Positions 50,443 through 64,000 are shown, counted from the first letter of the stretch. The stretch: DNA of 64,000 bases from Candidatus Cloacimonadota bacterium (GCA_012516855.1 JAAYWB010000016.1:1-64000); one strand, 5' to 3'. The notes: generated by a model not told the origin, from the sequence alone. Numbers and translations are program-made.

Positions 50443-50470
50443 GAAAAAACCCCGCCGGTGGAGCGGGGTT
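50443..50470 (-). terminator. Rho-independent terminator of the envelope (ExbBD/TonB/TPR) operon
   Basis: AACCCCGC (50470-50463 on the minus strand) pairs perfectly with GCGGGGTT (50455-50448) around a 7-nt loop; the T-run continues to 50444. It starts 22 nt after the last gene of the operon. Confidence 0.9.
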
Positions 50471-50491: not shown

Positions 50492-52006
50492 TTAGGCTTG
50501 AGTGAGGTTCATTTTGAACTGGTATTTTGTGGGTTTGGTCACGTTGAAGCGCCAGGATTCCACTATGTTCTTGATCTCGTTCAAGAAGCTCTGCGTGAAT
50601 GTGGCGCTGTTTGAAGTTACACGGGCCGAAACACTGCCATTTTCTGCAATGTCCATTACAACAGTGATTGAACCGGTCTGCTTTTTAATGGCAACGTTTC
50701 TCTTGTAGGATTGCTCGATCTGGCCTTTTCGGGAGGCGATCTGGTTGTAGATGATGTCGGCGTCCGGAACGGAGGAAGCGGGCTTGGGTATCTTCACTTC
50801 CGGGGTGGGGAGCTTGGAGATTTCCGGGGCTTTCACAACGGATTGGGTAACTCTTTCAGTTTCTTCACGGGCTGAAGGAACGGCCGGCCACTGGCCGGTG
50901 GAAGGGGTTTTCAACCTGGAAGCGTCACCGGTGAAAGTCTGGGTGGGCACATTAGGCCGGGTGGTCAATCCGGGTCCGCCGGGTAGGGTTGTGGCAACCC
51001 TGCCAACATCAGAGGTTGAGGTGTTGAAACCTGAAGTGGCGTTGGGATCGAAGGAACCGGAGAAACCTGACGAAGCCTGGGGATTGAAGGATCCCGAAGC
51101 TCCGGATCCTGTGCCGGTGCCGGTTGCGGAACCCCTGGCTCCCGGGCGGGCAGTGATAAAATTCTGCAAGCCGGTGACGGCATAGGCAGTTTGGGGCCTG
51201 CTGGGGCCGGGAGTTCCTACTCCGGGTCTTCCGGTGCCAAAGATCTGGCCTCTATCGGGCACACCCTGGCTTTGCCTTCCGCCGGTGGTCCGGCCGGTAC
51301 CTCTGGCAGGTTGCGTTCCGCCGGGTTGCTGTTGTCCACGGGTATCACTGACTTGCGCTTCTGGTGGGGTCTGCGGCATGGTTGCTTCCGGAGGGGTCAA
51401 ACCAAGCTGCGGCTCTATCCTGCGCACTCTTTCCAGTTCCGCCAGAGTTTCCGTGAGGGTTTTTTCCTGGTCCATTTTGGGCTTGATCACGAGGTCGTAA
51501 ATCAGCACGAAAGCGAGGCCAAAAATCAAGAAGAGCAGGATGAGTCCAGTTTCCGTGCGTTCCGAAGAAGATAACGGGGCCGGCTTCAGGCTGTTGTTCA
51601 CCACAGCTTGTTCTTCCGGGCGCAGAACCGTTATCCGAGGCTCGGTATAACCGAACTGGATGTCGTAATCAGGGTTTAACTGCGCGGTTCCGCTGAGGTC
51701 GTTGCGCAGCTTGAGCAGCGAGCCTGATAGGATGCCGTTTTGCTGCAGGGCATTGGCATCCAGCGGATTGCCATCCTTGCTGCAAGTCAGGTTCGAGCCA
51801 TCCGGCAGTTGCAGATAGAAGTCTTCTCCACGCTTGATCAGAAGCTTATGCCTGACTGGGAACTTCTGCGAATCGTCCAGGATTTGCCAGAACAGGTGTT
51901 TATCTGTTCCAATGTACCATTTGTTGGTAAAATCCAATCCCTGGCGGATGGTATCCAGATGTTTTCCCCGGTAATTAAGGCTTATATTCAGTATCGTCTT
52001 TGCCAT
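50492..52006 (-). CDS. TonB/AgmX-like energy-transduction protein with FHA-like N-terminus
   Basis: A 504-residue inner-membrane protein. ATG at 52006 is chosen because GGAGG sits 4 nt upstream; the ATG one codon earlier is too close. Residues ~1-125 resemble an FHA-type beta sandwich (IGTDKHLFWQILDD, YLQLPDGSNLT). A single membrane helix lies at ~155-175 (LILLFLIFGLAFVLIYDLV). A very long Pro/Gly/Thr-rich stretch (~190-400) would span the periplasm. The last ~100 residues match the AgmX/PglI-type C-terminal domain (IASRKGQIEQSYKRN, GSITVVMDIAENGSV, ESWRF), but its usual cysteine is Ser here. With adjacent ExbB and ExbD it likely transmits energy to the outer membrane. Confidence 0.85.
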   Translation of the reverse strand: MAKTILNISLNYRGKHLDTIRQGLDFTNKWYIGTDKHLFWQILDDSQKFPVRHKLLIKRGEDFYLQLPDGSNLTCSKDGNPLDANALQQNGILSGSLLKLRNDLSGTAQLNPDYDIQFGYTEPRITVLRPEEQAVVNNSLKPAPLSSSERTETGLILLFLIFGLAFVLIYDLVIKPKMDQEKTLTETLAELERVRRIEPQLGLTPPEATMPQTPPEAQVSDTRGQQQPGGTQPARGTGRTTGGRQSQGVPDRGQIFGTGRPGVGTPGPSRPQTAYAVTGLQNFITARPGARGSATGTGTGSGASGSFNPQASSGFSGSFDPNATSGFNTSTSDVGRVATTLPGGPGLTTRPNVPTQTFTGDASRLKTPSTGQWPAVPSAREETERVTQSVVKAPEISKLPTPEVKIPKPASSVPDADIIYNQIASRKGQIEQSYKRNVAIKKQTGSITVVMDIAENGSVSARVTSNSATFTQSFLNEIKNIVESWRFNVTKPTKYQFKMNLTQA

Positions 52007-52016
52007 CATACCTCCC

Positions 52017-52568
52017 TTACCCACTGGTGTTCGATTTACTTTTTTCAAGCCAATCAGTTTCCAGGAGGGTGGCAAAATAGATGTATTCGTAGAAAGAACT
52101 GGTCCCCAAGCTCACGAATTCCGTTATATACCAGCAGGGGATGCTTTTATCCGCCTGTATGAGCAAGGCTGTGGTGGTCGGATTACCGTCGGCATCGGGA
52201 GTTTTAACAATTTCCGTGGCAGTGCTTTGCAAGTAAGTGAGGATTTCGGTGCGTTTATCAGGATCAGAAGCAAACTCTTCCAGGCTGCCAAAATAGATTC
52301 CCTGTTCGCCAAGGAGTATCCGGTCAGGGTAGATCTGAACCACGGTGGTACCTTTGTTTTCCAGCAAGTCCCGCTTTTCCATGGTGACCGGGAAGGTCAT
52401 GTTGTTAGGCATGGTCAGTTTTTGCACTTCCATGGATACGTTCTTGAGCAGGAACACCAGCAGGATGGTGAGGATATCCACCAGTGAAATGATGGACAGC
52501 GAAGTTCCTTCTTTGAACTTGCGCCGCACCCGGCGGTTCGTGTCTTTGGGCTTAATGACGTTGCTCAT
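52017..52568 (-). CDS. ExbD/TolR-type protein 1 (retains membrane Asp)
   Basis: A 183-residue protein with one N-terminal membrane helix (~25-45, SLSIISLVDILTILLVFLL). Asp31 is the residue essential for proton use in ExbD/TolR/MotB-type motors. The periplasmic remainder has the usual short domain (VVQIYPDRILLG, TTALLIQADKSIP). Overlaps the preceding ExbD gene by 4 nt (ATGA). Together with the ExbB-like protein encoded upstream it should form a proton-driven motor complex. Longer than the typical ~140-residue ExbD because of insertions near residues 60-130. Confidence 0.9.
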   Translation of the reverse strand: MSNVIKPKDTNRRVRRKFKEGTSLSIISLVDILTILLVFLLKNVSMEVQKLTMPNNMTFPVTMEKRDLLENKGTTVVQIYPDRILLGEQGIYFGSLEEFASDPDKRTEILTYLQSTATEIVKTPDADGNPTTTALLIQADKSIPCWYITEFVSLGTSSFYEYIYFATLLETDWLEKSKSNTSG

Positions 52569-53101
52569 TTTCCCCCCATCACGTAGTAGCGAACCTGCGG
52601 GGCTTTGTAGTGAACATTGGCAAAGTTGTTGCTCCGGCAGATATCTATGGTTTTGATCAGGACGTCATACTTCACATCATCATAAGGGGCCACACTAATG
52701 TCCAGCAGGTCCGGAAACCTTTCCCGGACAGCCTTGAGGGCGGCATCGAGCATGACATAGTCATATTGTCCAAGAGACAATTTCACGATACCGGGGTCGC
52801 GTCCGGGTTCCCTGATCTCGAAACCAGGTATGGTGGTGAGCAGTGAATCCTGCGAGGCCGTTATGATTACGGTTACTTCCGGAACATCCTTATTCAAGCC
52901 TTCCGTGCCGTCAACCGTCGCGGACTGGCCGGGAGGGGCGGCAGAGAAGTTGAAGGCCACCAGCGCCACCTGCGTGATCACCAGCATCAGCAATAGAAAT
53001 GGGATGACGGTGAGAAACAAGTTCATGAGGGGCACCAAATCCGGAATTTTCGGATCTGAGACCGGATGCTGGTTCCTTCTTGCTGAAGGACGGTATGCCA
53101 T
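52565..53101 (-). CDS. ExbD/TolR-type protein 2 (membrane Asp replaced by Asn)
   Basis: A 178-residue ExbD-like protein. The membrane helix (~22-47) reads PDLVPLMNLFLTVIPFLLLM, so the conserved membrane Asp is Asn27. The periplasmic part (PEVTVIITASQDSLL, VKLSLGQYDYVMLD, PYDDVKYDVLIKTID) keeps the fold. Having one Asp-bearing and one Asn-bearing ExbD in the same operon suggests a heterodimer in which only one subunit uses the proton path. In Myxococcus the AglR-AglQ-AglS motor also has two ExbD-type subunits (recalled). Start ATG, 5 nt after the ExbB-like gene's stop. Confidence 0.88.
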   Translation of the reverse strand: MAYRPSARRNQHPVSDPKIPDLVPLMNLFLTVIPFLLLMLVITQVALVAFNFSAAPPGQSATVDGTEGLNKDVPEVTVIITASQDSLLTTIPGFEIREPGRDPGIVKLSLGQYDYVMLDAALKAVRERFPDLLDISVAPYDDVKYDVLIKTIDICRSNNFANVHYKAPQVRYYVMGGK

Positions 53102-53105
53102 GATT

Positions 53106-53876
53106 TTATCCTTTAGCTGAGATATTGATGAAGTTGATTAGTTTAACGCTATATTCGTCGATCTCGTTGATGAGTTTTTGGGCTTTGCCCATCAGCCAAC
53201 CTTTGATCAGAGTGAGCGGAATGGCGGCGATCAAACCGAGGGCGGTGGTGCCGATGGCGGTTTTGATGCCGGCAGAAAGCATGATGTTCTTCTGGCTGTC
53301 AAGCACGTCAGGACGGCTGAGGGCGTTGAAAGCTGCCAGCAATCCCCAAATGGTTCCCAGCAGACCGAGATAGGTGCAAACTTGGGCAAGGGTGTCGAAC
53401 CAGAAAAGGCCCGCGTCGAGTTTGTAAACTTTTTGCAGCACGGCTTCGTCGAGTGCGTTCTGCACTTGGTCGCTCATGTCTTCTTTGGAGGCAGTCTTGC
53501 GCACGTCCTTATAGACGGAAAGTCCGCTGAAGAAGATGAAGCCGAGGGTGGTGTCCTTCAATTTTTCCGTGATCTTGATGGCTTCTTCGATCTGGTCGTT
53601 CTTGATGTAGCCTTTCAGGCTTTTGTACAGGTTCTGGGCGTTGATCTTTTCTTTATGGAACAACTGGATGTAGCGGACGACCGCGTAAACGATACCGATT
53701 ATGAAAACCAACAGGATGAGGTATCCGAAATAACCTTCCTGATTGCTGTCATCAAATATGGTGGCAAGGTTTACGGGGCTTGTTTTGATATCTGTTAGCT
53801 GTGTTACCTGCGCCGACAGGGCCCCAAGGCTGATCACCAGGGTTAGGATTACGAGAACGATGTGCTTGGCATTCAT
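53106..53876 (-). CDS. ExbB/TolQ/MotA-type proton-channel protein with signal peptide
   Basis: A 256-residue inner-membrane protein. MNAKHIVLV at 53876 follows GAGGAG and overlaps the preceding stop by 4 nt. An N-terminal hydrophobic segment (~4-22) looks like a cleavable signal or first helix (GALSAQ). It is followed by a helix ~50-70 (YLILLVFIIGIVYAVVRYI), a cytoplasmic domain, and the two conserved helices ~165-185 and ~205-225 with LLGTIWGLLAAFNAL and IGTTALGLIAAIPLTL. These last are the MotA/TolQ/ExbB signature and hold the polar Thr residues. It is the stator of the motor built by the two ExbD proteins encoded downstream. Confidence 0.92.
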   Translation of the reverse strand: MNAKHIVLVILTLVISLGALSAQVTQLTDIKTSPVNLATIFDDSNQEGYFGYLILLVFIIGIVYAVVRYIQLFHKEKINAQNLYKSLKGYIKNDQIEEAIKITEKLKDTTLGFIFFSGLSVYKDVRKTASKEDMSDQVQNALDEAVLQKVYKLDAGLFWFDTLAQVCTYLGLLGTIWGLLAAFNALSRPDVLDSQKNIMLSAGIKTAIGTTALGLIAAIPLTLIKGWLMGKAQKLINEIDEYSVKLINFINISAKG

Positions 53877-54181
53877 TTTGACTCCTCTAGCCATGTTAAT
53901 ATTTCTTGTTTCCAATTTGTAAGTTGTTTTTTGCTTTCAGCCTGAATCGCTGCCAGGCTGATCGTGAAATCGTATTTTGCCGCCGGAGCATAGGTATCGG
54001 TCTTGACCTGGACCACGCTGATATCAGGCATCATGGTCTTGATCTGGATCTGCAGGTCGCGTCCTTCTATCAATTCTGTTTCCTGGGGTTCCGCAACAGC
54101 GGTTTCGCCACTGTCCACCTGCGCAAGGCAAACGGAGGTTCCCAGCAGGATCAGGAGGCTGATCAGTAAAGTCTTTTTCAT
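53873..54181 (-). CDS. Small exported protein of the envelope operon, function unknown
   Basis: A 102-residue protein I do not recognise. A signal peptide covers ~1-20 (LLISLLILLGTSVCLAQ); the VCLA-Q end resembles a signal peptidase I site more than a lipobox. The mature part is acidic at first (GETAVAEPQETELIEGRD), then has strand-like stretches (DLQIQIKTMMPDISVVQVKTD, YDFTISLAAIQAESKK) and ends in a helix. Overlaps the ExbB-like gene by 4 nt and follows the giant TPR gene by 4 nt, so it is translated with the motor genes. It may be a periplasmic accessory of the motor complex (inference). Confidence 0.8.
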   Translation of the reverse strand: MKKTLLISLLILLGTSVCLAQVDSGETAVAEPQETELIEGRDLQIQIKTMMPDISVVQVKTDTYAPAAKYDFTISLAAIQAESKKQLTNWKQEILTWLEESK

Positions 54182-54185
54182 CTCT

Positions 54186-57100
54186 TCACTCCTTGGCGGA
54201 TACTGTTATGCCCAGCTCGGCGAGCATGCCGCGGTTGGGCGAATTGTTCCTAACTTCCATGCGCAGCTTGTTCAAGCCGGGCTTCAGAAGGCCAACGGGC
54301 AAACCGGCCCTCACCGGATACACCAGGAAAGGCTCAGTATCGTAGTTCAGTTCGTAAACAGGACCCAGGGGCTGGCCATTCAGGAACAGCTTGGCGTTGT
54401 CCGGGGCGACAAAATCAAGATAACCTTCCCCAAATCCTGCTTGCAATTCAAATTCCTTTTCAAATATTACCAGTGTCTGTTGGTTTTCCTGCGTCTCATC
54501 TATCCAGATTGGCTTCGCAGAGGTATTTTGCAGGAAAGTTGATCTGTCCATGGGAAGATCGAAGTTCGGTGCCAAACTGGCGTAGGAACTGATCTCCTCT
54601 CCTGTTGCGGGGTCTTTCCCGATCACTATCCAGTCTGTATTTGACACCAGGGTTTTCACATCGGTGGGGCTGGTGGTGACCATTTCGGCCGCGTCAAAGA
54701 AGAAACTTGTGCTGAAATGGATGGGCTCTTCCGAAACACCGGTGTTGGGGAAAACGCCTCGGAAAAGGTTCTTACCACTTTTCAAGCCCTCGCCTTCGAT
54801 GCGGATCGCGAAGACCGTGCCAAAATCTTCCCTGTAAACGGGAATATAGACCGGATCTATCTTGGTGCCGTTGAAAACGATGTTGGGGTCCTGCTCATAA
54901 GCCAGATAAACATAGGCAAAGAGGGGGGCGACCTCAAAATCGAACTCACGTTCCAAAACTAGTTCGTGACGGGAGGGAACGCTATAAGTCGAGAGCATTC
55001 TTCCGTCATCCAGGGTTAGGGAACCGAATGCGTTGAGCTTCTGAGAACCACCCTGGGGTTTTTCCAGTCTGGCGGTCCAGGTTTTGTCCAGTGTGTGCCG
55101 GATTTCTGTGTATTCCGGCAACAGGTTGCGTTCGATAAGTTTATCTTCGGCCTTGGTGGTGTACTTGTCGTAGTAACCGGCTGTGAAATACTTGTTGTAG
55201 ATATCCTGGTAGATCAGGCTCGAGTTGGCGTGAAACACATCTATATAGGGTTGAGAATGTGGTTTGATATCAGTGTTGACCATTTTGTCAAACTCACGCT
55301 CGCTGACCCTTTTGCGGTCGCGGAAGGGAGCAAGTTCATTGGCTACCTGGATGTATTTATTGATCTGGGTTTCCACAACTTCTGCAGCACGGTCATTGAT
55401 CTGGCAGATCAAGCTGAGCGCCCTAAGACGACGTTCGTTGTCCAGGATGTCAGCTTCCTGCTGATCAAGCAGTTTAACAATCTTTGCAACCTCGAGTTCG
55501 GCTTTGGTTTGCAAGGATGGAACCAGGTTTTGGGTTCCGCCGAAGAGGTGTTTTTGCCAGGTGGTGCCGGCACTCACGGGCAGCAGTTTGTTGGCTGATG
55601 CGGTGAGGAAATTTCCTTTTTCGATGCTGTTCATTTGGCGGTCGAATCCATCCAGGAAGGCTTGGCGTGCTTGCAGGATGGAGTGTTCGGATTCAGCGAA
55701 GGCAAAGGCTTCATAAGCTTTGGCGCTTTCCACGGGCAGACCTTCTTTTCGATACTCAGCTTCCTGGCGTTTGAACTCGTCCCTTTTCTGGAAGGCCAGG
55801 TCCCAATTCTTGGCTGCGTAAGCAGCATCAAATTCTTGTGCCAGTGTTCCCAGTTTGCGGTTGGCAACCGTCAGATATCGTTCGGATTTGGTTTTGTCAT
55901 TCAGATATAGTTCGCGCGCGTAATACTCAAAACGCTGCTGATCCTGCCGGGCAAGGTAAGAATCAGCCAGGATGGTGAGGAAGCCGGGAGTTTCTTTGTG
56001 TTTGGGGTAGGTTTGGGTGAAGTAGGTAAGGGTCTCCACTACTTTATCCTGATTCTTCTCACTGCTGTAGATCTCCACAGCCCAGAGATATATCTCTTCC
56101 GGATTTATGTCGCCGCTGTCAATGCGTCCGGCCCGCACGTCTTTGTGCAGGTCGATGTAAGCCGCAGCCGCGTTTCCACGCTGGGCGGGGTCCTTGCGCA
56201 TTTCCTCAATGAGGTTTACCCTAAGGGCAAAGGCGAGGTTGCTCTCTGGAAACTGCTGAATGAATTCGTTTTTCAGGTTCCTGGTTCTGACGGGGTCTTT
56301 AATCTGGTTTTGGGCAATGTTCCAGCTCTGTTCATAGAGGGCATATTTCTCATTCATGGAGGGTTTTACAGCGGCCAGATCCGTTTTCAGTTCGATAGCT
56401 TCAGGGTAGAGCCTGGCTTTGATGTATGCTTCGGAGGCTAGGAACAGGTAACCTTGGCTGCGGGACGGCTCATTGGTAAATTTGTCCGCCAAACGGATCA
56501 GCTCAGTGGCAACGGTCTTATGGTCACCCTGCTTCTCGGCCTGTTCATAATTGTTCTGGATCTGCAATCTCACGAAGTTTTCGATCTCAGCGGCGTCGGC
56601 GGTATTTTCAGAGAAGCCTTTGGCGGCTATGTACATCCGTTCCGCTTCACTGAAGTTGCCGGCATCCTCCTCTATCTTGGCCAGGTTCAGGTAGATGCTT
56701 CTGCTGGTTGCCCGATCGATATCGATCCCACTTGCCAGAATTGTGTTGTAATGTACTTTGGCCTGTTCCGGATGGCCATGGTGCATTTCAACCGCTGCCA
56801 GGTCCATCAGAATGGCTGGTGCCCCCTTTCTGGCTTCCGGATTCTGGGAGGCCTTCAACACATCGTAGAACCTGAGCGCTGAAGTCCGGTACTGGGTGTG
56901 GGAAGCTTGATCTTTCGGAGCGGGTTTGGAGAGCGAGTATATCCGCTGATTGTATTTGTAGATGAGGCCTTCGTTATTGAAGAAATCAGGGTTTCCCTGA
57001 TAATCTTCGTTGTATTTTGTCAGCTTCATCGCGGCGTTGCTATAGCTTTCAACATCATTGCGTTTTTCAGCCAAAATGCTGGCCAGCAGCACTTCGGTTT

Positions 57101-60017
57101 GTCTGTTACTGTCAATGAAAGTCTGAAGTTCCGAGGTATTAGTGAAAAGCTCAGTGTACTGCTGATACGCCACTATATGAGACTCGTACAGTTGTTTGTC
57201 CCTGTTGGAGGCAGAGTCGATCAGGTTGTTGTAATGGCGGATGCGGATTTGTTCATAGGCATCGCGGATGATATTCAGCTGCGCTCTCAGGTCAGGCATT
57301 GCGGGGTCTGCATTCTTAACATTATCCTGATACCACTTGGTGCCTTTGCCATAAGAGGCTTTAATGAAGTCGAGCTTTTCATCGCGAATCTGGGAAAGAT
57401 TCATGCCGGAACGCAGTTCCAAGCCAGGGGTGTAATATAGTTTTATGATTGAATCGACTACAGCCGGATTTTGCAGCTCATTGGGAGAGGTCTGGAGCCG
57501 GAGTTCCATAAAATCTATTGCCTGCAACGGCGCTTCCATATCCACTTTCATGCCTGCGGCTTTATCCAGGATCAAGGTTTTCACCTTGATATCGGAATAC
57601 TCAGCCATCGCTCTGCGGATCTCTGTCACACCCTTGGATTCCTGGGTGAATTCTATGCCGTCGAGAGCGATAAGTGAATAAGCGATGTTGTCAATGGAGT
57701 TGTCCCGGTAATCCTGAGCCAGATAGGCATCCGTGATCTCTTTGCTATCAGCGGCTCCGATGAGAGTGACAAAATCTGCCAAGGCTGATTTCAGGGATTG
57801 CTCGTCTCCCTGATTCAGATTTACCCAAGCCCTCTGGTACAAAGCGTCATGGTGATAGGCGCTGGAAGGTTTATTCACAAGGGAGTTAAAACGACGGTTC
57901 GCCTCCGCGTAATGAGTAATGGGTTCATCCGCGTCCGAGCCGATCAGAAAATGGAGTATGCCAAGCCGATAGACAGCCTCGTCGTAATAGGGCGAATCGT
58001 CATACTTGCCGGAATCCACCAGTTCTGTGTAGGCATTGAGTGCTTCGCTGAAATCAGCCTCAGTGAATTTTAGGCGGTCCGGCCTCTCCCGATTGGGGTT
58101 GGTAGCACGGAACTGCTCTATCTGTGAGTATCTGGATACTTTTTTGGCCTCGCTGCTCAGATAGCCGATATTATAAAGTGCTCGGTCACGCAGATAAAAA
58201 TCAGGTTCGATTTCCAAGGCCTTTTTATAGTTGGCGAGGGCTTTCTCTGGTTTGTCCAGATCAACCGCGTATTGCAGTTCCGCCATATTGTAATAGATAA
58301 TGGCATTGTTCAGAAGGTATCCGCCGCTGGGCTGTTCCATGGCTTGGAAATAGGGATTGGCGTTAACAAAAGCCTCATACCTTTTCAGCAGTTCAGCTTT
58401 GTCCTGCACTATCTTCTGATACTCAGCCCGCTGCTGCTCCTCACCCAGCGCATCCACCTTGGCCAGACGCTGCTGCTCCTGATATCGGATCCTGCGATAA
58501 TCCACCATCAAACCCAAAAAATCCAGATTGGCAATGAAGGTGTCATCGATGGGAAAATCCTCCAGTCCAACCTTATGGGCCAGCGCGTATTGTTTTTCGA
58601 TCACGCCTCGTTGGTCTTTGGGATAGTTTTCCTTAATCATGGCAAGCATCACGTCTTCGACTTCAGGAAGTAGTTCATCCAGGGAGCGTTTGTCGCGGTA
58701 AGTGGCGTAGTATTCGTCTAAAAGTTCTGTGAAAATCGCTTCTTCAACGCTGTCCTGGTGCTTGCGGAAAGCCAGGTAGCGTTCCTTGCGGTTTTGCAGG
58801 TCGGCGATTTTTTCCACATATTCCTGCCGCTCAGGGCCAAGATCGATGTTCAGGCTTGGGTAATTTGGCTGAGCCATGATTTGGTCGATCTCTGCCACAA
58901 CGTCTGTGTATGTGTTGATGTTGCGCTCGATGTCCATGAGGCGCTTCAACTCCATGTCGCTGAAGCCCTTGCCTACCACGGATTCATCTTCGTTAACAAA
59001 AAGCTCGTAGCGCCGCTCGAAAAAGCGGTCCATTACATCCAACACCCTTCCGTAGAATACGGATGTATCTTTCAATTGTTTTAGCAGAATCGCACCTTCA
59101 CGGTAACGGTTGAAGGCTGCGGATTCGGGCCCGATGTAGTCAGGTGAGGCCAGCAGGTCCAGATCGATTGGGGGCAGCGATTCGAAAGGCCGGATTTGGG
59201 CCTTGAAATCCTCCAGCAGGAGCATCTCCTCTTCCGCGATCCTGTTCAAAGCTTCGGTAAACTGCAGTCCAGGAAGGGATTTAAACTCGTTGTAGAGGTC
59301 CTGCAAATCACGCTGGATAAGAGAGACCTGTTCCTTTAAAACATTGGCTTTGATGGTATCTGGTTTCGCGTAAAACGATTCCAGATCGAGATCATCCAAA
59401 CGGGAGATCACACTCCTTCGGCGGTTGACAAAAGTGTTTTTTATCCAATCTTTGCTGTTTTGATAGGCGTCAACATAGCCTTGTATCCTGGCTTCTTCAG
59501 CATCCTCGGCCAGGAGGTCAGCCCATAAAAACATGTAGGTGGGGTAATATTTGCCCGTCGAGAAACGATTCATCACGTCTTCAAGGAACGGTGCCGCTGA
59601 TGATTTTTCTTTGTTTTGGATGTAATCCACCGCTCTGTAATAGAGCAACAAATTGAGCATCATCCTGGCGTCATCGCCGAGCTTGGGGTCGTTGATCAAA
59701 ACATCGAAATATGGGATGGCTTTGGTTGGATCGTCCACCACAGAGTAAAAATGCCCCACCAGATAGAGAAGGTCCGCTTCATCGAGTTTGCTCAGGCTCT
59801 CATAATGCAGCATGTATTCTTCCACAGCCTGAGCCTTATTATTCTTCACCAGTTGGGGAAGCCTGTCTTTAAGGAAATCTATCGCTTCCATCACTTTGTG
59901 GTCGGCGTAAACAGCGCTTCGCACATCTGTTCCGGGCGTCGTGTTTTGAGCAAATGCCAGCGCGAAAGGAACCACTGTCAGCGTCAGCAACAGATACAGT
60001 TTGATGAGTTTTTTCAT
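54186..60017 (-). CDS. Giant exported TPR-repeat protein with C-terminal jelly-roll domains
   Basis: A 1943-residue envelope protein. A signal peptide spans ~1-24. Almost the entire length to ~1640 is helical repeat sequence with TPR-like signatures, for example ALANYKKALEIEPDFYLRDRALYNIG near ~600 and clusters at ~1090-1300 with AEQAK and YLFLASEAYIKAR. The last ~250 residues change to beta-rich modules resembling galactose-binding-type jelly-rolls (LFLNGQPLGPVY, KPGLNKLRMEVRNN, two copies). No lipobox cysteine is seen, so it is periplasmic or exported to the surface. It precedes the small protein and ExbB-ExbD-TonB genes with 4-nt spacing. The likely role is a periplasmic scaffold joining motor and outer membrane. 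This is inference. Confidence 0.87.
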   Translation of the reverse strand: MKKLIKLYLLLTLTVVPFALAFAQNTTPGTDVRSAVYADHKVMEAIDFLKDRLPQLVKNNKAQAVEEYMLHYESLSKLDEADLLYLVGHFYSVVDDPTKAIPYFDVLINDPKLGDDARMMLNLLLYYRAVDYIQNKEKSSAAPFLEDVMNRFSTGKYYPTYMFLWADLLAEDAEEARIQGYVDAYQNSKDWIKNTFVNRRRSVISRLDDLDLESFYAKPDTIKANVLKEQVSLIQRDLQDLYNEFKSLPGLQFTEALNRIAEEEMLLLEDFKAQIRPFESLPPIDLDLLASPDYIGPESAAFNRYREGAILLKQLKDTSVFYGRVLDVMDRFFERRYELFVNEDESVVGKGFSDMELKRLMDIERNINTYTDVVAEIDQIMAQPNYPSLNIDLGPERQEYVEKIADLQNRKERYLAFRKHQDSVEEAIFTELLDEYYATYRDKRSLDELLPEVEDVMLAMIKENYPKDQRGVIEKQYALAHKVGLEDFPIDDTFIANLDFLGLMVDYRRIRYQEQQRLAKVDALGEEQQRAEYQKIVQDKAELLKRYEAFVNANPYFQAMEQPSGGYLLNNAIIYYNMAELQYAVDLDKPEKALANYKKALEIEPDFYLRDRALYNIGYLSSEAKKVSRYSQIEQFRATNPNRERPDRLKFTEADFSEALNAYTELVDSGKYDDSPYYDEAVYRLGILHFLIGSDADEPITHYAEANRRFNSLVNKPSSAYHHDALYQRAWVNLNQGDEQSLKSALADFVTLIGAADSKEITDAYLAQDYRDNSIDNIAYSLIALDGIEFTQESKGVTEIRRAMAEYSDIKVKTLILDKAAGMKVDMEAPLQAIDFMELRLQTSPNELQNPAVVDSIIKLYYTPGLELRSGMNLSQIRDEKLDFIKASYGKGTKWYQDNVKNADPAMPDLRAQLNIIRDAYEQIRIRHYNNLIDSASNRDKQLYESHIVAYQQYTELFTNTSELQTFIDSNRQTEVLLASILAEKRNDVESYSNAAMKLTKYNEDYQGNPDFFNNEGLIYKYNQRIYSLSKPAPKDQASHTQYRTSALRFYDVLKASQNPEARKGAPAILMDLAAVEMHHGHPEQAKVHYNTILASGIDIDRATSRSIYLNLAKIEEDAGNFSEAERMYIAAKGFSENTADAAEIENFVRLQIQNNYEQAEKQGDHKTVATELIRLADKFTNEPSRSQGYLFLASEAYIKARLYPEAIELKTDLAAVKPSMNEKYALYEQSWNIAQNQIKDPVRTRNLKNEFIQQFPESNLAFALRVNLIEEMRKDPAQRGNAAAAYIDLHKDVRAGRIDSGDINPEEIYLWAVEIYSSEKNQDKVVETLTYFTQTYPKHKETPGFLTILADSYLARQDQQRFEYYARELYLNDKTKSERYLTVANRKLGTLAQEFDAAYAAKNWDLAFQKRDEFKRQEAEYRKEGLPVESAKAYEAFAFAESEHSILQARQAFLDGFDRQMNSIEKGNFLTASANKLLPVSAGTTWQKHLFGGTQNLVPSLQTKAELEVAKIVKLLDQQEADILDNERRLRALSLICQINDRAAEVVETQINKYIQVANELAPFRDRKRVSEREFDKMVNTDIKPHSQPYIDVFHANSSLIYQDIYNKYFTAGYYDKYTTKAEDKLIERNLLPEYTEIRHTLDKTWTARLEKPQGGSQKLNAFGSLTLDDGRMLSTYSVPSRHELVLEREFDFEVAPLFAYVYLAYEQDPNIVFNGTKIDPVYIPVYREDFGTVFAIRIEGEGLKSGKNLFRGVFPNTGVSEEPIHFSTSFFFDAAEMVTTSPTDVKTLVSNTDWIVIGKDPATGEEISSYASLAPNFDLPMDRSTFLQNTSAKPIWIDETQENQQTLVIFEKEFELQAGFGEGYLDFVAPDNAKLFLNGQPLGPVYELNYDTEPFLVYPVRAGLPVGLLKPGLNKLRMEVRNNSPNRGMLAELGITVSAKE

Positions 60018-60178
60018 AACCCCGCTCGCTTAAATCGTCCTATGTTATCAATCCTGCCAGTTATAAGCAGGATTCAGGATGCAGCTGGGGTGTGCATCCT
60101 GAATCTCAAGCTTGACCAAGGGAAATATGTACGTATTGACCTGCACATTCACCATGAGGTGGAATAGTGCGATAATTA

Positions 60179-61333
60179 TTATTGATTTTCTTCCTTGAGC
60201 TCCTGCAGCCATTTGCGCAAATCTTCCAAAGCCTTTTGCGCTTTCTGGCGTTCTTCGCGAAGGAGTCGCAACTCAGCCAGCAAGTCTTTCACTTCCGGGG
60301 AAAGCTCTTTGTAGGCGCTGGCTTCAACAATGCCTGGAGTGGGAAGCTGGGTGCCGGGAGTTACAATGGCGACCTCAGAGGGTTTGCCAGATTCAGTGGG
60401 CGCCACAGCCACGGGTTCCGTGGTAACGACCACAGGCTCGGTGCCGATGCTGGTGGCGTAGAGGCTCAAATCCGGGCGTATCGTGGCGTTCTTGTCAGAG
60501 TATCTGTCGAAAAGGTATGAAAGCCCCAGGGCAATGCGGAGGTTGTTTTCATATCCGTTGCCTTCGGAGCCTTTGGCCATGTCTTCAACCGCTTCCGCGC
60601 CAAGGCGGATGCCAAAATTCTTGTAGGAATACTTGAGGCCGGCATTGAAATCTTTACCGTCGTATTCACCCTGAATAGCAAAATTGTCCCAAGGCGAGAT
60701 CTCAACTGAAGTAAAGAAACCGCTGAAGAAACGGGAACGGGGAACCTGTCCAGTATATCTGTTTGATCCGAATCCCGCGTTGAACATCCAGTCGATGCCG
60801 CCCATCACCACCTGCTTGGAGGCGACGATGTAGGGGGAGAAATGCTCGTAGTCTGTTTTGTCAGGATGATCAATCCAGCCCAAATCATGGGGATCATATA
60901 CAGCGGAAGGAGCGCCATCTTCACCTATTTCAGGATCCCAATAGGGTTTGTAATCCTGGGCTCGACGCCGGTTGATTGGCGAGAAGATGTTGTCCATGCC
61001 AATAGCGATTTGAGGGAACTTGGGCGTTTCCTGCAAAAGCTTGACCTTGGCGTTGAGGAAATAAACGTAATCACCGCCGAAGAAATCCATCTGGACCCGG
61101 TCGAATAGTCCCACCCCCAGCATACCGTAGAAATTTAGCCCATTCTTGTCCATATCAACGTAAGAAGGCTTTTCCACGTTCCTGTAATAGCCTGCCAGAA
61201 CCAGTTGTGCCGATTTGTGTGGAATAACATACGCGTCTGGCGTGCGCAATAATCCCATCGTTTGGAACGGCGCAGCTTCTATGATACCGATCACGGCTGC
61301 CAGAACAATTACACTCAATATAACTTTTTTCAT
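60179..61333 (-). CDS. Outer-membrane beta-barrel-like protein with C-terminal coiled coil
   Basis: A 384-residue exported protein, first gene of the envelope operon. ATG at 61333 follows GGAGGGA; a GTG four codons earlier overlaps that site and is rejected. After the signal peptide (~1-20) comes PFQTMGLLRTPDAYVIPHKSAQ, then alternating strands (LVLAGYYRNV, VQMDFFGGDYVYF, IGMDNIF, GIDWMFNAGFGSNRY, GLKYSYKNFGIRLGAE) up to ~290, as in a barrel of 12 or so strands. A Pro/Thr/Val-rich linker (~290-340) leads to a coiled coil at the end (~345-384, LLAELRLLREERQKAQKAL). A periplasmic coiled coil would suit contact with the TPR partner. A 161-nt gap without terminator separates it from the giant gene. 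Confidence 0.82.
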   Translation of the reverse strand: MKKVILSVIVLAAVIGIIEAAPFQTMGLLRTPDAYVIPHKSAQLVLAGYYRNVEKPSYVDMDKNGLNFYGMLGVGLFDRVQMDFFGGDYVYFLNAKVKLLQETPKFPQIAIGMDNIFSPINRRRAQDYKPYWDPEIGEDGAPSAVYDPHDLGWIDHPDKTDYEHFSPYIVASKQVVMGGIDWMFNAGFGSNRYTGQVPRSRFFSGFFTSVEISPWDNFAIQGEYDGKDFNAGLKYSYKNFGIRLGAEAVEDMAKGSEGNGYENNLRIALGLSYLFDRYSDKNATIRPDLSLYATSIGTEPVVVTTEPVAVAPTESGKPSEVAIVTPGTQLPTPGIVEASAYKELSPEVKDLLAELRLLREERQKAQKALEDLRKWLQELKEENQ

Positions 61334-62295: not shown

Positions 62296-63630
62296 TCAAT
62301 TGTAGAGTTTTCTGGTGTCGAAGTCGTCCCCCAGGTAATAGAGGTAATCCGGATTCGAACTTTCCCTCTGATCACCCTCGACGTAAATCAGGCGGTAATT
62401 GCCGTTCATCTGAATGTCCAGGAAGAGGTAAACCGCTTTTTGCCTGCCCTGGTATTTCCATATCTGATAGTCTTTGCGAACGAAGCGGGCTTCATCAGAA
62501 GAGGTGCCTACTTCTATATCATCGGGTTTGCCCCTGCGGATGTGGATGCGGCCCATGTCAGAGGTCCAGCCCCGCTCAAAATGGCTGTAATAGTAGTTCG
62601 CGTAGTCAACCCTTTCGCTGATCTGGTCGAGCATGGTTTGAGTGTTCATATTGCCTGCTCCGGCCAGGGCTTTCCATTTTTGACTCAGGTATCTTCGCTT
62701 TGTATCAAGATCATAGGTTTTCCAATCGCTGGTCGAGGTGGCTCCTGTGAAGTATTTGAGTAGCCTGAAATCATCCTCGGGATCGGTAAAAACGCAGAAC
62801 TGCTCCTGCTTGGGCTCTGTCAGGAAAAACTCGAACTGTTTTTCCTGGCTGAAGTCCCCAAGTTGAAATTCCACCGATCCCGTGTATTTGCCTGGGTTCA
62901 ACTTTTCCAGAGGGATGCGCAGGGAAACTCCTTCGATGCTGGAGGTCGGTATGTAGTCCAGAAACTGGTCAAACACCATCACGCTGTCTTTTGATACGGT
63001 CAGAACCAGCAGCCCGGTTTCGTCAGCCAGGCCTTCCGGCTTGTAAGTCTCAAAATAGATGGTGAGGTCTTCGCTCTCCGTTTTATCGAAGATCAGCGAT
63101 GGCTGGGTCTGGTAGAGGATTCCGCCACGGTGAAACCGCTCCAGAAAACTGCTGCTGTCAGGCTTCGCGTAACTGCATAATTCCAAGTCGCTGAGCAGAT
63201 CCTGTTCGCCCAGTGGAGTGACCTGGTAGGTCCAGGTGGCGGTTTTTCTTGAATTGATGTCTTTCGCGTTCAGGCGCAGAAGGTAGGGCTCGCTTTCCAC
63301 GCTGAAGGTCAACCGGTTGAGATAGCTTTTGTTGGAGCGGGCGTCGTTTTTATCCGAGATTCCAACATTGTCGCGGAAGGTTTGGCTATAGATAATTTGA
63401 TTGTCAACCACCATCTCAACCTGCAGGTTCAACTCAGCAAAATAACCGCCTTTTTGGGCAAGGAACCAAAGATTTCCGTAAGGGATCTGGTAATCGACGT
63501 TGATAATGGTGTTTTTATCCTTGTCCAAAAAGCGCTGCGGGGACACATGCATGTTGAAAGAGTCAGCTGTAGCCGTCCCTGCCAGGCTGGCCAAAGCCAG
63601 ACAAAGCAGTGATGCTTTAGTATTCTTCAT
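62296..63630 (-). CDS. Secreted GWxTD-domain protein
   Basis: A 444-residue exported protein of unknown function. The ATG follows AAGGAAC; a signal peptide covers ~1-22 (CLALASLAGTATA). The N-terminal two thirds are beta-rich (IPYGNLWFLAQKGGYFAELNLQVEM, VSLRIPLEKLNPGKYTG). The GWxTD domain at ~325-400 has ERGWTSDMGRIHIRRGKPDDIE and DYQIWKYQG. Such proteins occur in Bacteroidota, Acidobacteriota, Cloacimonadota and relatives, usually exported. It overlaps a second GWxTD gene upstream by 14 nt, so the pair is co-translated. No enzymatic motif was found. Confidence 0.85.
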   Translation of the reverse strand: MKNTKASLLCLALASLAGTATADSFNMHVSPQRFLDKDKNTIINVDYQIPYGNLWFLAQKGGYFAELNLQVEMVVDNQIIYSQTFRDNVGISDKNDARSNKSYLNRLTFSVESEPYLLRLNAKDINSRKTATWTYQVTPLGEQDLLSDLELCSYAKPDSSSFLERFHRGGILYQTQPSLIFDKTESEDLTIYFETYKPEGLADETGLLVLTVSKDSVMVFDQFLDYIPTSSIEGVSLRIPLEKLNPGKYTGSVEFQLGDFSQEKQFEFFLTEPKQEQFCVFTDPEDDFRLLKYFTGATSTSDWKTYDLDTKRRYLSQKWKALAGAGNMNTQTMLDQISERVDYANYYYSHFERGWTSDMGRIHIRRGKPDDIEVGTSSDEARFVRKDYQIWKYQGRQKAVYLFLDIQMNGNYRLIYVEGDQRESSNPDYLYYLGDDFDTRKLYN

Positions 63631-64000
63631 CTTTGTTCCTTAGTTTGTATTGGCCAAAACCACCGGTGTCGGCGAAGATGAACTCTAGATTCTGGTTATA
63701 ATAAATCCAGACAATATATGGATGCAGGTCCAGGGGATGCACTTCGCTGTGCACCTCATCCGGTTCGCCGTATTTGATGTAGATTCTACCTCTGTCGCTC
63801 TTCCAACCCTGCAGCCTTTTATGGATGGTGAAGCGTTCGTCGGCTGTGATCACGCGCTTGTAAAAGGATTCGCGTGCTTCGTTGCGCAGGGTTCCCGGGC
63901 TCGGATCGTGTACCTGCCAGTATTTGTCTATAACTTCGTGCATTTTCTCATCCGGAACGGCCCGCAGGCTTTTCCATTCATTTTGTGTGGCGATATAGCG
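63617..64000 (-). CDS. GWxTD-domain protein, C-terminal part only (cut by window edge)
   Basis: The frame is open to the window edge, giving 127 residues before the stop; the start lies outside. The visible part is the end of a GWxTD domain: KYWQVHDPSPGTLRNEARESF, RVITADERF, LQGWKSDRGRIYIKYGEPDEV, PYIVWIYYNQNLEFIFADTGGFG. An internal ATG at 63943 exists but would cut into the domain, so it is not taken as the start. It is upstream of and overlaps the complete GWxTD gene by 14 nt. It is more conserved than that gene and may be the founding copy of a duplicated pair. Confidence 0.85.
   Translation of the reverse strand, partial: RYIATQNEWKSLRAVPDEKMHEVIDKYWQVHDPSPGTLRNEARESFYKRVITADERFTIHKRLQGWKSDRGRIYIKYGEPDEVHSEVHPLDLHPYIVWIYYNQNLEFIFADTGGFGQYKLRNKDEEY

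Follow-up and report, generated by a model that had tools for sequence, protein, structure and literature searches.

Organization of the operon

We analysed a 64,000-nucleotide stretch (henceforth the window) from a Candidatus Cloacimonadota bacterium (GCA_012516855.1, JAAYWB010000016.1:1-64000; contig C16, genome size 2.25 Mb), and describe here an operon of seven open reading frames (ORFs) that occupies positions 61333-50492. All seven are co-directional on the minus strand, in the 5' to 3' order outer-membrane barrel, tetratricopeptide repeat (TPR) protein, small exported protein, ExbB, ExbD1, ExbD2 and a transducer of FHA (forkhead-associated)-transmembrane-TonB architecture. An initial annotation had proposed seven closely spaced co-directional genes at this place, and the operon is confirmed: every ORF is present and five of the six junctions fall within 7 nt, the exception being a gap of 161 nt between the barrel and TPR genes. 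The TPR and small genes are 4 nt apart, the small gene and exbB overlap by 4 nt (the ExbB ATG at 53876 overlaps the TGA of the small gene), ExbB and ExbD1 are separated by 4 nt, the two ExbD genes again overlap by 4 nt, and a 7 nt gap precedes the transducer. Besides that of ExbB, likely start codons were refined for the barrel (ATG, 61333) and the transducer (ATG, 52009). A terminator-like hairpin (50448..50470, minus strand) of nine pairs with a T-run lies 3' of the last stop and appears to close the operon; it has the most G-C pairs among the terminator matches and stands at the expected place, matches over the whole region being no more numerous than chance. No convincing promoter was found upstream of 61333 by a consensus scan, whose counts equalled those of shuffled sequence.

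The motor genes carry the most regular signal of the locus. ExbB (53106..53876, 256 aa) begins with a signal-like helix and is an ExbB/TolQ-family proton-channel subunit (MotA_ExbB, PF01618, E 7.7e-23), in which the membrane residues Thr174 and Thr210 (aligned-ORF numbering) are invariant in all 53 aligned sequences. ExbD1 (52565..53101) and ExbD2 (52017..52568) both belong to the ExbD/TolR family (PF02472, E 2.1e-6 and 1.3e-5), and differ at the position that carries the proton, which is Asn27 in the former and Asp31 in the latter. The split is without exception among the aligned sequences, all from within the phylum and a few of them duplicates of one genome: Asn in ExbD1 (52/52), Asp in ExbD2 (51/51). 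This Asn/Asp rule is new here; a literature search for an Asn-bearing ExbD returned nothing relevant. So strict a division would be difficult to account for if the two proteins did not share a complex; ExbD1 and ExbD2 therefore probably form an obligatory heterodimer in the motor axle. Models of ZorA, tried for a Zorya system, matched at E 0.007 or worse, and this candidate was dropped.

The transducer (50492..52009, 505 aa) comprises an FHA-like domain (residues 6-122), a transmembrane helix (148-175), a disordered linker of about 200 residues and a TonB/AgmX-PglI-like end (417-502). In the AlphaFold2 model the beta fold of residues 6-122, placed in the cytoplasm, is confident (predicted local distance difference test above 90); this domain was found by the structure model alone, as no member of the transducer family has a Pfam match to FHA. 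Foldseek returned FHA domains (afadin, Chk2, kanadaptin, KAPP) and TonB C-terminal domains with high probabilities and mostly weak E-values, a pattern to be expected when only two small domains of a model of 505 residues can align. Canonical FHA domains bind phosphothreonine through an Arg and a Ser. In all 37 transducers the residue following the conserved Gly is S, T, K or N and Pro invariably occupies the Ser site, so that these residues are absent and the domain appears to be non-canonical and unlikely to bind phosphorylated partners. At the opposite end, the AgmX/PglI C-terminal model NF033768 matches 33 of 37 relatives (best E 6e-18), and the window protein at E about 1.6e-8, below the 40-bit cut-off. 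Elsewhere in the phylum, a single 505-residue frame (G091:C118:50485-51825) holds three tandem matches to AgmX/PglI tails.

The remaining three proteins have signal-like N-termini, as judged by eye. The scaffold (54186..60017, 1943 aa; TPR_12, E 5.6e-7; signal-like N-terminus MKKLIKLYLLLTLTVVPFALAFAQ) comes from a single gene in the window's family but from a neighbouring pair (about 670 and 1450 aa) in most others; aligned with hhalign, the profiles of the split genes cover residues ~83-520 (E 1.2e-15) and ~522-1951 (E 5e-193) of the long protein. Its C-terminal region (54189..55160, residues 1620-1943) contains jelly-roll, carbohydrate-binding-like domains, with a family profile similar to lectin chains (E 1.4e-5) and to a rhamnosidase (E 2.4e-4), and some relatives show GH2_N, Bac_rhamnosid_N or CBM-like matches there. 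The small protein (53873..54181, 102 aa) keeps its place between TPR and ExbB; its size and position suggest a resemblance to GltF (89 aa). The first gene (60179..61333, 384 aa) encodes a predicted outer-membrane barrel that matches YjbH in Pfam (E 1.6e-5; 24/36 relatives) and is modelled with 12 strands and a helix at residues 346-383 that would form a C-terminal periplasmic coiled coil (AlphaFold2, pLDDT 75.7).

Conservation across Cloacimonadota

Relatives of the window's ExbB all come from Cloacimonadota. We surveyed 125 genomes of the phylum and, for co-occurrence, counted by hand from the tables the 71 of high quality. The TPR protein is present in 85/125 genomes, in most with an operon-type ExbB adjoining it. 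We read 57 loci, of which 52 were taken from the genomes; the others, L004-L008, include several from genomes already counted. Wherever the contig reaches, the seven-gene order is kept except in G082, G087, G089 and L097, the last with only the TPR gene recognised; in some divergent loci the small gene was missed by automatic pick-up. With thresholds of E <1e-30 for ExbB and E <1e-20 for the barrel, the operon-type proteins occur in 51 and 55 of the 71 genomes: 51 have both, four the barrel only (G082, G085, G087, G089), none ExbB only and 16 neither (Fisher p 1.5e-12, uncorrected for relatedness). The initial annotation had named beforehand the staying together of these genes in related genomes as the test of a multiprotein machine, and the order is indeed kept across the phylum, which indicates more than a chance arrangement. 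A TPR protein lacking export, its refuting condition, is not what we see: the TPR proteins begin with signal-like sequences. A conserved machine with an inner-membrane motor, a cytoplasmic FHA-like domain, an exported TPR protein and an outer-membrane barrel is thus supported.

Three loci (L095, L096 and L099, corresponding to G082, G089 and G087), from two genera of one family (f10), lack ExbB and both ExbDs and keep the barrel and both TPR genes; otherwise only a shortened TonB-tail gene remains, before priA. The C-terminal profile of the scaffold matched all the long TPR proteins examined apart from those encoded at these three loci. That the motor genes (ExbB and both ExbDs) and the TPR end-domain are missing together while the rest is kept is likewise new here.

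The neighbourhood is stable beyond the operon. PriA is often encoded just downstream, and upstream most Cloacimonadota loci have two tandem genes for GWxTD-domain proteins (E 2.4e-9 and 4.8e-17; 62296-64000 in the window, 2297-4733 in L105); a divergent gene, YraN-like by eye, stands between these and the barrel gene in the window. Part of this synteny thus reflects no more than a stable neighbourhood, and gene overlaps and shared losses carry more weight as evidence.

In three further loci (L092, L100 and L101, from G117, G116 and G107) the same gene order recurs in a diverged, second type of operon, whose transducer is nearer to GltG. Their contigs also hold operon-type barrel matches, two of them in tandem in G116, and in L092 the operon is followed by a gene that by eye resembles a GGDEF-domain response regulator. 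A tblastn search of plasmids with the most GltG-like transducer found nothing.

Relationship to known systems

The initial annotation had called the machine undescribed, which is too strong: the arrangement is not wholly new. A core complex of GltC/D/E/G with AglR/Q/S has been described in Delta- and Gammaproteobacteria and in Fibrobacter (Luciano et al., PMC3169522), and the Agl-Glt (gliding) and Agl-Nfs (spore-coat) systems of Myxococcus xanthus share with the operon, by type of component, an ExbB, two ExbDs, an FHA-transmembrane-TonB transducer, exported TPR proteins, a small exported protein, an outer-membrane barrel and the AgmX/PglI tail (PglI being GltG, and AgmX GltJ; PMC3169522). The channel subunit AglR has its counterpart in the operon ExbB, by the PF01618 match and the invariant Thr residues. 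Several features differ. AglQ and AglS are both described as bearing Asp (PMC9389320), whereas here ExbD1 has Asn and only ExbD2 Asp; there is no MglA-like match; and the genes form a single operon. The transducer agrees with GltG in architecture and folds, but its score against the GltG equivalog model is far below the cut-off: only one relative, the divergent L092 transducer, matches the model (residues 9-468, E 5.5e-24), and it reaches 84.7 bits against a cut-off of 650, mostly through the tail. Because the two-Asp feature is lacking and the GltG match lies below the cut-off, we do not claim formal membership in Agl-Glt.

By published locus numbers, the same order of gene types is found in Fibrobacter succinogenes, where FSU_2396 (OmpA), FSU_2397 and FSU_2398 (exported TPR proteins), FSU_2400 (ExbB), FSU_2401-2402 (ExbD) and FSU_2403 (TonB family) all showed raised abundance on cellulose in one study; FSU_2396/2397 have also been reported from an isolated complex that contained cellulases (PMC6851124, PMC4619616). 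This is presumably the Fibrobacter cluster that Luciano et al. counted. Its two TPR proteins (84 and 147 kDa) are separate genes, as in the split form of the operon, unlike the fusion in the window's family.

More distant likenesses were also considered. Clusters of the PVC group combine a TPR protein, a tolQ-like gene, a heterologous tolR-like pair and a membrane-tethered transducer, but the latter ends in a vWA fold and carries an SHLS/His motif in its transmembrane segment (PMC12204202), whereas the operon transducers end in a TonB/AgmX-like domain and only 1/37 has any His in that segment. The canonical Ton and Tol-Pal systems share the ExbBD/TolQR motor and the TonB-like end fold; the operon differs from both in its additional, Asn-bearing ExbD, FHA-like domain and giant TPR protein, from Ton also in the near absence of the conserved transmembrane His and in having no plug-bearing receptor gene, and from Tol-Pal in that no TolB or Pal match was found among its seven proteins. 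Sets of the ExbB/ExbD/TonB type exist, moreover, elsewhere in the same genome, on contig C67 (ExbB beside ExbD- and TonB/TolA-like genes) and contig C60 (ExbB beside a TonB-dependent-receptor-like and a TonB-like gene). General energisation of the outer membrane, suggested by the initial annotation, is less likely because the genome has such a separate set next to a receptor-like gene.

A candidate trans-envelope force transducer

We favour, with moderate confidence, the interpretation that the operon encodes a transducer driven by the proton-motive force that spans the envelope, of the same kind as Agl-Glt, Agl-Nfs and FSU_2396-2403. From the predicted parts we infer how these would assemble, in what stoichiometry and contacts, and what would move. 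ExbB would form the proton-channel ring and the ExbD proteins, probably as an ExbD1-ExbD2 heterodimer, the axle inside it, and the motion of this motor would drive the FHA-transmembrane-TonB arm. With its flexible linker of about 200 residues, the arm could cross the peptidoglycan and bring its TonB-like end to the TPR scaffold in the periplasm. The scaffold would include the sugar-binding-like end and the small protein and would dock on the coiled coil of the 12-strand barrel. Its most likely output would be to move or assemble a surface glycan or adhesin complex, or to load it with force. Three observations suggest that such a complex is moved or loaded: at the spore surface, Agl-Nfs moves glycan by means of the Agl motor (PMC3858216); the Fibrobacter cluster is linked to cellulose; and the terminal domains of the scaffold resemble sugar-binding ones.

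In favour of this interpretation we count the conserved order and co-occurrence, the motor residues, the AgmX/PglI tails, the match of the L092 transducer to the GltG model, the FHA and TonB folds, the absence of the sugar-binding-like end exactly where the motor is absent, the cellulose link of Fibrobacter, the glycan movement by Nfs and the separate ExbB/ExbD/TonB sets of the genome. Several points weigh against it. The support consists of sequence comparison and predicted models; the conserved synteny also takes in PriA, so that neighbourhood alone is no proof of function; the N-terminal part of the L092 transducer by itself matches GltG weakly (E 0.029); FSU_2396 belongs to the OmpA family, unlike the 12-strand barrel with its coiled coil; and the TPR proteins, none of which was matched by the Glt-specific models (GltC/D/E), resemble those proteins or the Fibrobacter ones by protein type.

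The barrel itself raises another explanation, energised uptake or export of oligo- or polysaccharides, in which it would be a pore opened by the arm while the TPR end binds sugar. Its best Foldseek matches, with modest TM-scores, include FapF and the oligosaccharide porins NanC, KdgM and VhGalP, its Pfam match is to the exopolysaccharide protein YjbH, and the carbohydrate-binding-like domains of the scaffold would fit as well. We nevertheless consider this unlikely, since the barrel model has no plug domain (nor does the protein match Plug in Pfam), no transporter or glycan enzyme is found among the ORFs adjoining the operon and the large TPR scaffold is left unexplained.

Gliding, which the initial annotation had also raised, would have the complex drag a surface adhesin against the substrate and so move the cell. 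The component types are the same as in Agl-Glt, but the core genes occur in non-gliders too (PMC3169522), and an indirect search of the same genome for an MglA-like small GTPase, needed for a gliding output, gave only one Ras/Arf match (PF00025), inside an 894-aa frame of the size of IF-2. Gliding of the Myxococcus type is accordingly disfavoured and seems still less likely than glycan transport.

A Tol-Pal-like device, tethering the barrel to the wall and motor through the TPRs and so stabilising the outer membrane, is quite improbable. Parts of the TPR protein do score with YbgF/BamD models, and a passive role is conceivable because three genomes keep barrel and TPR proteins without a motor; against this stand the lack of TolB and Pal, the second ExbB-ExbD-TonB/TolA-like set on contig C67 and the absence of the operon from many near-complete genomes. 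A motor for type IX secretion in place of GldLM is very improbable: SprA_N, like TonB-dependent receptors (Plug), is found in 71/71 high-quality genomes, so that neither tracks the operon, 20 of the 71 having SprA without its ExbB, and the GldL and GldM models gave no match but are uninformative, their controls being equally silent.

Implications

If the transducer interpretation holds, envelope machines of the Agl-Glt/Nfs class, which transmit force, would reach into a candidate phylum, their genes gathered there in one compact operon that corresponds closely in gene types to a Fibrobacter cluster raised on cellulose. The joint absence of the motor and the TPR end-domain hints at the place where force may be passed to the scaffold. 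A review of 5:2 motors notes the Asp of both AglQ and AglS and states that it is unknown whether such MotB-like subunits form homo- or heterodimers (PMC9389320), a question on which the invariant Asn/Asp split bears. We tentatively suggest that this phylum-specific surface machine may be powered by an asymmetric 5:1:1 motor, with an obligatory ExbD heterodimer in which one Asn is permanently uncharged and each axle has a single working proton site, so that its step, direction or tension would differ from those of 5:2 motors with two Asp residues. The Asn/Asp ExbD pair of Cloacimonadota would make it possible to test, in a natural system, if a 5:2 motor can run on one proton site.

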